Origin: Asticcacaulis endophyticus | GTDB taxonomy: Bacteria > Pseudomonadota > Alphaproteobacteria > Caulobacterales > Caulobacteraceae | Length of the DNA stretch: 64,000 bases | Direction: 5' to 3' | Assembly (NCBI RefSeq): GCF_014652575.1 | Contig: NZ_BMZB01000001.1 | Location: forward strand, 62,001 to 126,000 | In this document: in pieces, positions 11,421 through 29,609 of the stretch | Layout: each line of letters begins with the position of its first letter | Numbering within the stretch: the first letter of the stretch is position 1 | Program-made: the position numbers and the translations under genes | The notes under the pieces: generated by a model | What the model was told of the DNA's origin: nothing | The model's database searches: none | What the model saw: the letters and a program-made list of their open reading frames with translations, nothing else

Positions 11421-11537
11421 CTCCTCCCCTGCGATCGCGGGGGAGGTGGCAGCCGTAAGGCTGACGGAGGGGGCACGGCTGTAAGTTTCCCCCCTCCACC
11501 GCTTCGCGGTCCCCCTCCCCCGTAAACGGGGGCGGAG
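11421..11537. repeat. GC-rich intergenic palindromic (REP/BIME-like) element
   Basis: Between gcdH and the CoA-transferase gene lie interleaved inverted repeats: CTCCCCTGCGATCGCGGGGGAG, then GGCAGCCGTAAGGCTG, and CCGCTTCGCGG followed by CCCCCGTAAACGGGGG. Similar building blocks (CGGTCCCCCTCCCC, gggag palindromes) recur at 29450-29609. No open frame is convincing. This is a typical extragenic palindromic cluster; it may fold in the mRNA and separate the two genes' expression. Confidence 0.7.
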
Positions 11538-11644
11538 AAAGATCAACACATAATATCATTATCCGTTTCTCATTCTTCCCTTACAGGCAAAAAGTACACT
11601 GAGGGCTCTGCCCGAAGGACTTTTGCCTGAGTTGTTTGTTTTTT

Positions 11645-17577: not shown

Positions 17578-17641
17578 CATCCGCATTGCGCCCCCCGCGC
17601 AGGCCACTATATGTGTGCACAACGGTACAGAAAGGGCGGAC

Positions 17642-18556
17642 ATGGACACGATCATTGCCATAAAAGGCCTGGAGAAAACCTATGCCAGCGGCCACAAGGC
17701 GCTTAAGGGTATAGATCTCGATATCCGTCGCGGCGAAATCTTTGCGCTGCTGGGGCCGAATGGCGCGGGTAAAACAACCCTGATCGGGGCAGTATGCGGG
17801 CTGGTGCGCCCGACCGGCGGCACCATCATCGCCGATGGTCATGATATCTCTAAAGACTTCCGCGCCGCCCGTGCCAAGATCGGGTTGGTGCCGCAGGAAC
17901 TGGCGACCGACATGTTTGTCACGGTCTGGAACACGGTCGCCTTCAGCCGCGGCCTGTTTGGCCTTGGCCCCAATAAGGCCTATTTAGAGAAAATCCTGAA
18001 AGATCTCAGCCTGTGGGACAAGAAGGACGCCAAGATCGCCACCCTGTCCGGCGGTATGAAGCGGCGTGTGCTGATCGCCAAGGCGTTATCGCATGAACCC
18101 AAAATCCTGTTTCTGGATGAACCGACCGCCGGCGTCGATGTCGAGCTTAGGCGCGACATGTGGCAGATGGTGCGCCGCCTGCGTGAACAGGGTGTCACTA
18201 TCATCCTGACCACCCACTATATCGAAGAGGCCGAAGACATGGCCGACCGCATCGGTGTGATCAACAAAGGCGAGATCATACTGGTCGAGGACAAAACCGC
18301 CCTGATGCGCAAGCTGGGCCGCACCGAAGTGGTCATCGGCCTGAAAGAGCCCACCTCAGCCGCCCCCACCATCAGCGGCCACACGCCGCTCATATCCGAA
18401 GATGGCCTGACCCTGACCTATGTGATTGACGGGGACGAAAACGACGAAGCCCCGGCCGATCTGATTAAACGGCTGGCCCAGTCGGGCATGGATTTCACCT
18501 CCATCAATATGAACCGCTCCTCGCTGGAGGACATCTTCGTCACGCTAGTGCAGTGA
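17642..18556 (+). CDS. ABC-2-type transporter ATP-binding protein (YadG-like)
   Basis: 304 aa from ATG 17642, preferred over 17615 because AAAGGGCGG lies just upstream and the fold starts at [11 protein letters not shown]. Walker [11 protein letters not shown]-loop LVPQE, signature LSGGMKRRV, Walker [13 protein letters not shown] and switch His in [15 protein letters not shown] are all intact. Length and C-terminal extension match YadG-like exporters. The partner permease starts 168 bp downstream. The last codons (CTA GTG CAG TGA) form the left arm of a twin-hairpin element at 18545-18710, so this gene's 3' end is part of that structure. Cargo is unknown. Confidence 0.93.
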
Positions 18557-18710
18557 TGCGGACATTTGATCCACGGGTGCCCCACACTCGATATCAAATG
18601 TCCGCATCGTAAACTGCGCTAGAATTAATTAGTTAATAGTGCACTTTTGCCTCATTCATTTGCTCTCAAGGCAGCCGCAAGCTTTAGCAAATGAATGAGG
18701 CAGTGCACTA
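18545..18710. repeat. Twin-hairpin element, copy 1
   Basis: Hairpin A, 18545-18622 (78 bp): CTAGTGCAGT pairs with ACTGCGCTAG, a TTAC-equivalent 4-nt bulge lies on the 3' arm, GATGCGGACATTTGAT pairs with ATCAAATGTCCGCATC, loop 22 nt. Hairpin B, 18637-18710 (74 bp): TAGTGCAC pairs with GTGCACTA, a 3-nt bulge on the 5' arm (TTTT against A), GCCTCATTCATTTGCT pairs with AGCAAATGAATGAGGC, loop 21 nt. Spacer 14 bp, AT-rich. Copy 2 at 24667-24830 has the same architecture with different stems. No U-tract follows, so it is not a simple terminator. Confidence 0.85.
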
Positions 18711-18724
18711 ATGGAGGACAAGGC

Positions 18725-19486
18725 ATGAACCTGCACGCCATAAAAGCTATCTATGCGTTTGAGATGGGCCGGTTTTTGCGCACCATTTTCCAGAGCATCG
18801 CCTCGCCCGTCCTGTCGACCTCGCTCTATTTCATCGTCTTTGGTTCGGCGATCGGCAGCCAGATGACGGAGATCGGCGGCGTATCTTACGGCGCCTTCAT
18901 CGTGCCGGGCCTGATCATGCTGACCGTCCTGACCGAAAGCGTATCGAACTCATCGTTTGGCATCTATCTGCCGCGCTTTACCGGCACGATCTATGAGGTG
19001 CTGTCGGCACCCGTCGAAGTCGGCGAAGTGATATTGGGCTATGTGGGTGCGGCCGCCACCAAGTCGGTCATTATCGGCACCATAATCCTTGGTACCGCGC
19101 GCCTGTTTGTGCCGTTTGAAATTGTTCATCCGCTGGCCACGGCGGGTTATCTGGTGCTGATTGCCGTCACATTTTCGCTGTTCGGGTTTATCTTGGGCAT
19201 ACTTGCCGACGGGTTTGAAAAGCTGCAGATCGTGCCCATGCTGATCATCACGCCGCTGACGTTTCTGGGGGGCACGTTTTATTCGATTTCCATGCTGCCT
19301 CCGGCCTGGCAGACCGTGACCCTGTTCAATCCGATCGTCTATCTTGTCAACGGCTTTCGCTGGACGTTCTACGGCAAGGCCGATGTCAATATCGCCGTAA
19401 GCCTAGGCATGACCGTGCTGTTTATGGTGGTTTGCGTTGGCATAATTTCATGGGTATTCAGGACAGGTTACCGCTTACGCACCTGA
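18725..19486 (+). CDS. ABC-2-type transporter permease (YadH-like)
   Basis: 253 aa from ATG 18725, with GGAGGACA upstream immediately after the twin-hairpin element; the 18695 start lies inside the hairpin. Six hydrophobic segments and the ABC-2 pattern [37 protein letters not shown], and the C-terminal [19 protein letters not shown] identify the family. It is the membrane partner of the ATPase at 17642-18556. The unusual point is that the two subunit genes are split by a 166-bp structured insertion, which could lower or uncouple permease expression. Confidence 0.92.
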
Positions 19487-23986: not shown

Positions 23987-24670
23987 ATGTACAATCTCTA
24001 CATCGCCAATAAGAACTATTCGTCATGGTCGCTGCGCCCGTGGGTTCTGTTAAGCGAACTGGGTATCGAATTTGTCGAGCATATGAATTTCTTCAAAGGC
24101 GGTTACGGCAAAAATACCGAATTTCTGAAGTTTTCACCGACCGGCCTAGTGCCCTGCCTGACCGAACACAGTGTGACGGTTTGGGATTCACTGGCCATTG
24201 CCGAATATGTCTATGAGCAGCACCCGTCCGTCTGGCCGAAAGACCATGCCGCACGGGCGTGGGCGCGGGCGGCGGCAGCGGAAATGCATTCGGGGTTTTC
24301 AGCCCTGCGCAACACCTGTTCGATGAACTGCGGCGTGCGTATCAAACTGCGCGAGGTTAGCCCTGCGCTTCAAAAGGATCTCGACCGGCTGGAGGCCCTA
24401 TGGCTGGACGGATTGAAGCGTTTTGGCGGGCCTTATCTCGCCGGTGATAAATTTACGGCGGTTGATGCGTTTTTCTGCCCGGTCGCGTTTCGGGTGCGCA
24501 GCTATGGTCTCAAACTGTCGCCCAAATCAGCCGCCTATGTCGAGCACCTGCTGGATCTGGAGTCGATGCAGAACTGGTACGCGGCAGCTCTGGCGGAAAA
24601 GGCGCGCGATCCGGACCATGAGGCCGAGCTTGAGGCCGCCGGTGACCTCATTGCCGACTACCGCGCCTAG
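23987..24670 (+). CDS. Glutathione S-transferase-family protein
   Basis: 227 aa, normal GST length. The thioredoxin-like N-terminal domain opens YNLYIANKNYSSWSLRPWVLL, with the usual Ser-rich active-site loop; SPTGLVPCL carries the cis-Pro; AEYVYEQHPSVWP ends domain 1, and an all-helical C-terminal domain follows. It would conjugate or reduce substrates with glutathione in the cytosol. The stop codon TAG (24668-24670) is part of the first CTAG of a twin-hairpin element, so the gene's 3' end and the element are fused. Confidence 0.88.
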   Translation: MYNLYIANKNYSSWSLRPWVLLSELGIEFVEHMNFFKGGYGKNTEFLKFSPTGLVPCLTEHSVTVWDSLAIAEYVYEQHPSVWPKDHAARAWARAAAAEMHSGFSALRNTCSMNCGVRIKLREVSPALQKDLDRLEALWLDGLKRFGGPYLAGDKFTAVDAFFCPVAFRVRSYGLKLSPKSAAYVEHLLDLESMQNWYAAALAEKARDPDHEAELEAAGDLIADYRA

Positions 24671-24830
24671 TGTCCTGAATCTAAAATTCGCCTCATGGCT
24701 ATATCAACCTTTAGCGAATTTCAGATTCAACAGGACACTAGAAATCACTGAATTCTAGTATCGTTTTAAATTCGAAGTTCGCTTGTGTCCTGATATCGAA
24801 AGGAGGCGAACTTCGAATTCACGATACTAG
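24667..24830. repeat. Twin-hairpin element, copy 2
   Basis: Hairpin A, 24667-24741 (75 bp): CTAGTGTCCTG pairs with CAGGACACTAG, a 3-nt bulge on the 3' arm, AATCT pairs with AGATT, AAATTCGC with GCGAATTT, loop 22 nt. Hairpin B, 24755-24830 (76 bp): CTAGTATCGT pairs with ACGATACTAG, a 3-nt bulge on the 5' arm, AATTCGAAGTTCGC pairs with GCGAACTTCGAATT, loop 23 nt. Spacer 13 bp. Bulge sides, sizes and order match copy 1. The 24831-24967 remainder of this gap shows no further strong feature beyond the next gene's ribosome site. Confidence 0.87.
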
Positions 24831-29449: not shown

Positions 29450-29609
29450 CAGCGTTAGGGCAAAAAGCGCAAATAGGCCCCCACCACCCTTTTGCTACGC
29501 AAAACGGTCCCCCTCCCCGGCACGCCGGGGAGGTATAAAATTACGACTTCATACCTCCCCAACTTGTTGGGGAGGAGGGAGGCCCGAAAGGGCCGGAAGG
29601 TGGGGGTTC
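29450..29609. repeat. GC-rich intergenic palindromic cluster
   Basis: The gap between the Smr gene and the convergent GH97 gene consists of nested palindromes: TTTTGCTACGCAAAA, CCCCGGCACGCCGGGG, CCTCCCCAACTTGTTGGGGAGG-type and GGCCCGAAAGGGCC, bracketed by GCCCCCACC and GGTGGGGGT. It is related to 11421-11537. It may end transcription from both sides; no gene is seen. Confidence 0.7.

Follow-up and report, generated by a model that had tools for sequence, protein, structure and literature searches.

The twin-hairpin element of Asticcacaulis endophyticus, about 165 bp long, is quite probably a non-autonomous (MITE-type) element of the IS630 (Tc1/mariner) kind, because the arm of its hairpin A resembles annotated IS630 ends and its insertions favour CTAG. 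Like MITEs in general, it is short, lacks a transposase gene and occurs in multiple dispersed copies. Two copies lie in the window, that is, in the whole 64-kb stretch of DNA that was analysed. We read the element as an IS630-type MITE with an unusual layout, in which the ends are doubled and the inner arms are interrupted.

Architecture of the twin-hairpin element

Both stretches (18545-18711 and 24667-24830) consist of two hairpins of about 75 bp each in mirror orientation, as the initial annotation had described, and this arrangement was recovered both by parsing and by folding (z from -6.6 to -9.1). When a single parsing rule was applied to all four hairpins, each showed the same order of parts: a 9-bp tip, a 16-bp inner stem (body), a loop of 22 to 24 nt, the 16-bp body again, a bulge of 3 to 4 nt, and the 9-bp tip. 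The layout given in the initial annotation was therefore correct, with corrected dimensions: the tips measure 9 bp in all four hairpins and not 8 to 10 bp, the loops 22 to 24 nt in this register and not 21 to 22 nt, and the spacer between paired hairpins 13 nt in both copies and not 14. The tips begin with YTAGT, the bulges read TAAA, AAA, ACA and AAA, and all four lie on the spacer-facing arm. The features are as follows.

17615-18556, plus strand: gene for an ABC transporter ATPase, ending with its stop codon within copy 1
18545-18711, no strand: twin-hairpin element, copy 1, lying between the ends of the ABC ATPase gene and the permease gene
18545-18622, plus strand: hairpin A of copy 1 (DNA fold z of -9.0)
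18545-18569, plus strand: outer contiguous arm of hairpin A of copy 1 (9-bp tip and 16-bp body), from parsing
18610-18613, plus strand: 4-nt bulge TAAA in the inner arm of hairpin A of copy 1, from fold and parsing
18623-18635, no strand: 13-nt spacer of copy 1, from parsing
18636-18711, minus strand: hairpin B of copy 1 (DNA fold z of -9.1), with the bulge at 18645-18647 and the outer contiguous arm at 18687-18711
18725-19486, plus strand: ABC-2 type permease gene, downstream of copy 1
23987-24670, plus strand: glutathione S-transferase-like gene, whose TAG stop codon lies within the terminal CTAG of copy 2
24667-24741, plus strand: hairpin A of copy 2, from fold and parsing, with the bulge at 24730-24732 and an arm that matches IS630 ends
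24742-24754, no strand: 13-nt spacer of copy 2, from parsing
24755-24830, minus strand: hairpin B of copy 2, from fold and parsing, with the bulge at 24764-24766

As single-stranded DNA the four hairpins fold with z values of -9.0, -9.1, -6.6 and -8.7 in order, and for none of them did any of 200 shuffles fold as stably. Scanning both strands of the window for the architecture returned four matches, which are these four hairpins, and none in 20 dinucleotide shuffles. The stem sequences differ between copy 1 and copy 2 and the pairing is retained, which agrees with the earlier claim, even though the pairing is not perfect in this register: the first hairpin contains two G-T pairs, the second is unpaired at its outermost position, the third has one mismatch and the fourth has one G-T pair. 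Each end of the element is thus doubled, with a contiguous outer arm followed by the loop and then by an inverted copy that is interrupted between the 9-bp tip and the 16-bp body.

The layout recurs across the family. Of 77 distinct pairs of adjacent hairpins, parsed with the side of the bulge left free and the best parse kept, 76 carry the bulge on the inner arm of each hairpin; in the remaining pair, L117, one of the hairpins lacks a bulge. Across 43 parsed copies, a count that excludes three orthologous duplicates of copy 1, the unit measures 159 to 167 bp, with bulges of 2 to 5 nt, loops of 21 to 25 nt and spacers of 12 to 15 nt plus one of 6 nt. Related twins with loops of 3 to 7 nt retain the stems and the bulge (G154, G371). 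A GANTC motif is present in 39 of the 43 copies and falls within the stem or outer arm of hairpin A in 35; this CcrM-type site in the hairpin A arm is GAATC in some subfamilies and GATTC in others. An ATAT core, mostly as GATATC, occurs in 73 of the 86 loops of these copies, which are variable otherwise.

Two further observations concern the surroundings. The glutathione S-transferase-like gene takes its stop codon from the CTAG at the end of copy 2 (24667-24670), and at the Labrenzia locus L254 an SDR gene likewise terminates at the CTAG of the element. The window also carries another intergenic repeat, which is G+C rich (GGGGGAGGTGGCAGCC...GCTGACGGAGGGGGC), at 11423-11540 and 29509-29578; the latter stretch is an inverted repeat with CCTCCCC runs similar to the repeat at 11423-11540, and many short matches to relatives of this repeat were met in ten genomes through the flank of copy L105.

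Insertions, target sites and transposon ends

The two twin hairpins are two insertions of one kind of mobile element. The permease beside copy 1 has a match in 32 of 41 genomes, and among 18 upstream stretches read, four (G000, G012, G003 and G013) carry copy 1 at the orthologous locus and 14 are without it; at the empty site of G008 the gap closes to GTCACTTTGGTGGAGG. Copy 2 is absent at its site from four near relatives (G012, G003, G013 and G008). The initial annotation had staked its proposal on finding further copies by genome search and on pairing at orthologous loci. Further copies are present, and the orthologous loci without pairing turn out to be empty sites only.

A scan of named genomes with the pattern found 25 stretches, 22 in Asticcacaulis, two in an Inquilinus MAG and one in Limobrevibacterium. 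With a covariance model built from 20 hairpins, from which those of copy 1 were left out, matches were obtained in 19 of 41 related genomes (17 of these in the genus), in 10 of the 62 genomes from a different family within the order, and in 15 of 289 genomes sampled across the class, the own genome included; since the class-wide search scored few candidates per genome, the copy numbers that it gives are minimum values. Two twins of the own genome were recovered by the model, namely copy 2 and a twin on contig C4; copy 1, without which the model had been built, was missed. No second copy of copy 1 was found in 25 genomes of the genus, which leaves copy 1 an orphan. Nine Roseibium/Labrenzia plasmids match the unit with 71 to 78% identity, and in the eight that were fetched it lies at one locus; searches of plasmids with copy 1 and with copy 2 as queries gave no match. 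Genome G058 holds many near-identical copies, and at L234 2-328 of this genome two units stand in tandem, overlapping by a common CTAG.

The neighbourhood of copy 1 was also considered as an old conserved site. Positions 1284-1519 of L003, which span copy 1, show no SNP between G000 and G013 amid a divergence of about 10%. Because bins 2300-2900 of the same locus are likewise free of SNPs between these genomes, recombination between species appears a likelier cause than constraint, as judged from this alignment.

IS630 reportedly prefers CTAG, a preference said to have been described by Tenzen and Ohtsubo in 1991. The outer tetramer of the element is CTAG on the left in 36 of 46 copies and on the right in 34 of 46. 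We queried 13 copies for empty sites, and nine gave an aligned empty site among 30 loci fetched. A single exact CTAG, as predicted for TA duplication, stands at the empty sites of L040 (two genomes) and L070 (three genomes). The empty sites of L104 and L106 read TTAG, those of L069 and L105 read CCAG, that of L037 reads CCTA in a single genome and differently in three more, and those of L035 and L114 diverge further from CTAG. The sites of relatives that face copy 1 are CTGG/TTGG-like, and those facing copy 2 read CCAA, so the TA is not seen in all relatives at five of the nine empty sites, nor at copies 1 and 2. The window holds fewer CTAG than expected (19 compared with 59, six of the 19 lying inside the two elements), and because of this depletion, loss of CTAG in the relatives is a possible cause of the sites without TA.

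The resemblance to IS630 ends emerged when a 31-nt query with the hairpin A arm was searched against 72,556 plasmid records. It matched 21 records, with an IS630 transposase gene under the match in five. In four of eight fetched matches (L238, L239, L242 and L244), an annotated IS630 gene lies at the match and a second CTAGTGTCCTGA end lies beyond it, and the hairpin A arm resembles the terminal repeats at these ends over its outermost 25 bp. Among the others, a helix-turn-helix gene stands next to the match in L240, where a second end is lacking; L241 and L245 have no annotated IS630 gene, and the record of L243 is nearly without annotation. The E-values of these short matches are weak (0.6 to 7), and their weight comes from their position exactly at transposon ends. 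Within the genus, the IS630 elements L149 and L155 and a multi-copy one of G022 begin at both ends with CTAGTG or CTATTG, and TGA occupies positions 10-12 in five of their six ends. Copy 1 has only the CTAGTGNNNTG start in common with IS630 ends, its arms being otherwise very different. As far as its sequence goes, its link to IS630 rests on the layout, the CTAG/CTAA ends and this common start.

A cognate transposase was sought in carrier genomes by PF13358 only. This domain had no match in G000 and G001. In the genus it gave 48 matches, and none of the 30 loci fetched from among these showed a transposase with matching ends, nor did any of the eight PF13358 loci of family f5. This negative result lowers the probability of membership among IS630-type MITEs and does not exclude it, as the partner need not persist.

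Covariation between the arms and its causes

The initial annotation had proposed that pairing was maintained through compensatory change, and such paired change is real and strong. An alignment of 20 hairpins has 25 paired positions, 15 of which vary on both sides, and pairing holds in 96.6% of its cells, a level reached by none of 500 shuffles (85.9% after shuffling); one of five measures, the number of further pair types, did not exceed the shuffles (22 versus 21.8, with 308 of 500 reaching 22). In 25 hand-chosen representative hairpins (12 from the genus, 11 from family f5 and two from Labrenzia), 95.7% of the cells are Watson-Crick pairs. Counted over sequence pairs, not as events, these representatives show 1936 two-sided and 476 one-sided differences, whereas column-shuffled 3' arms give means of 310 and 2619. 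Loop and bulge lengths are chosen by the parsing so as to favour pairing, to the benefit of the inner stem. The tips of 9 bp, being anchored at both ends, display the same pattern by themselves (717 two-sided versus 137 one-sided).

At fixed loci the changes are of the other kind. Ten orthologous pairs, three of which share the G000 copy of copy 1, hold 16 one-sided changes and one two-sided change in 500 base pairs; the eleventh pair, L106/L131, was left out as a 1-nt insertion shifts its register. By eye, the eight Roseibium/Labrenzia copies at one locus have four one-sided changes and no two-sided change. In the same ten pairs the loops differ at 22 of 459 positions and the stems at 18 of 1000. 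These counts lend no support to upkeep of the fold at each locus. From these comparisons of copies, the maintenance of pairing seems to show in the mobile lineage and not at individual sites.

A folded RNA under selection should clearly favour G-U pairs. The 76 twins comprise 152 hairpins with 3800 cells, of which 171 depart from Watson-Crick pairing: 58 G-T, 44 A-C and 69 others, in a comparison that leans to G-T as the scan scores G-T as half a pair. Because changes at fixed loci are nearly all one-sided and no G-T excess is clear, pairing seems to be kept at the DNA level in the mobile lineage and not through an RNA acting at each site. From the initial proposal of selection on a folded DNA or RNA, then, the paired change between lineages stands, and the folded RNA finds no backing in these cells.

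Within one hairpin the arms agree at 95.5% of positions; between hairpins A and B of an element, the agreement of the outer arms is 71% on average and 84% at most (76 twins). Because of this difference, common ancestry or a common binding site alone is insufficient; the element must either require pairing as such or have the two arms of a hairpin rewritten from each other. The second of these, in which one arm serves as the template for rewriting the other (quasi-palindrome correction or arm exchange) while the element is active and pairing is not selected, is a possible though somewhat doubtful cause of the covariation. It can be combined with the IS630-type MITE reading, as it concerns the covariation only. 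In its favour, two-sided changes dominate between lineages, and one is found even at a fixed locus, where the orthologous pair L075/L103 differs by an A-T to T-A change. In L128 (6656-6730) the loop of hairpin B is inverted relative to other copies between unchanged arms, which is a trace of arm exchange. Such copying has not erased the inner-arm bulge, except perhaps in L117, and since changes at fixed loci are mostly one-sided (16 to 1 and 4 to 0), such renewal would need to be either rare or coupled to transposition.

That all four arms were separately selected as binding sites for one transposase, with folding playing no part, is unlikely. The hairpin A arms do match IS630 ends, and the A and B arms are alike, but a single transposase reading all arms would make the two hairpins as similar as the arms of one hairpin, which the values of 71% and 95.5% contradict.

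We regard as still less probable a regulatory RNA or terminator, whose transcript would fold into two hairpins and stop transcription or protect the mRNA at gene ends. The folds are very stable and the positions are extragenic, several at the 3' ends of genes with CTAG even giving a stop codon; however, the 58 G-T against 44 A-C cells show no clear excess under a scoring that if anything favours G-T, decay at fixed loci is one-sided, and empty sites are common. The neighbouring genes of the 43 copies are co-directional in 19 cases, convergent in seven and divergent in seven, with one side unassigned in 10, a mix that does not resemble that of a terminator, and an Rfam search of the window and of four loci matched only tRNAs, with no family for the element. 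The mirror pair of imperfect extragenic hairpins would fit a REP/BIME-like element that a RAYT transposase (Y1, HUH) mobilizes through hairpins in single-stranded DNA, but this is very improbable given the CTAG ends and IS630-like arms, the presence of PF01797 (Y1) in only four of 25 genus genomes and in none of the carriers G000, G001, G005 and G006, and the lack of such hairpins at the nine Y1 loci fetched.

For the IS630-type MITE that we favour, the following mode of action may be proposed. An IS630-type transposase supplied in trans would bind the contiguous outer arms, cut at the TA of CTAG and move the whole unit. In the interrupted inner arms the tip would be out of phase with the body, and owing to this wrong spacing only the outer ends would be cut. 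The arms would stay complementary as a well-paired hairpin, or arm-to-arm copying, forms part of mobile life, and after a copy is fixed they would decay independently. Tentatively, and with some reservation, one may extend this to a class-wide family whose transposition substrate is the hairpin pair, each end being paired with an out-of-phase inverted copy of itself and renewed at the DNA level during mobility, so that the ends diversify as the geometry of 9 bp, bulge and 16 bp stays fixed. Transposon ends here covary with their own inverted copies between distant alphaproteobacterial lineages, and single copies decay uncompensated. Structural upkeep of a mobile lineage is thereby separable from function at a site, and the family offers a system for asking whether IS630 transposition uses or renews hairpins.

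Comparison with known systems

A literature search at the level of titles and abstract openings found no description of the twin-hairpin element. REP and BIME sequences are inverted pairs of imperfect hairpins in extragenic DNA. The present element, like those associated with RAYT, is such a pair, but it differs in its far longer stems, its CTAG ends, its IS630-like arms and the lack of a linked Y1 gene.

Among IS630 insertion sequences and their MITEs, the RUP of Streptococcus pneumoniae, linked to IS630-Spn1, is a precedent for a MITE attributed to IS630 (PMC2229807), and TA duplication is described for ISY100 (PMC2170065). The element resembles these IS630 ISs and MITEs (RUP) in its terminal repeat CTAGTGTCCTGA..., in TA/CTAG targets at part of the sites, in its small size and in having no gene. 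Unlike in those, each end here is doubled into a long hairpin, the inner arm is interrupted, and the arms covary between lineages.

The initial annotation knew of no named element with this layout, a statement that needs amending, since the ends and target resemble those of IS630-type transposons and the Caulobacter CIR repeats are described, in PMC2229807, with a two-arm layout. According to this source, CIR (Caulobacter and other alphaproteobacteria; Chen and Shapiro 2003) comprises two arms and a linker, has TA termini, a length of about 110 bp, no TIR and GANTC at the terminal loop, and its mobility is given as unclear; repeat elements other than CIR are said there to fold by pairing of the 5' end with the 3' end (PMC2229807). 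Our findings raise the question whether the CIR repeats are of the same kind. Compared with that description, the present element differs from CIR in its length of about 165 bp, its imperfect terminal repeats and the location of GANTC in the hairpin A stem (35 of 43 copies). It agrees with the CIR described there in its two inverted-repeat arms with a linker, the TA at its termini, its intergenic position and the possession of GANTC (39 of 43 copies).
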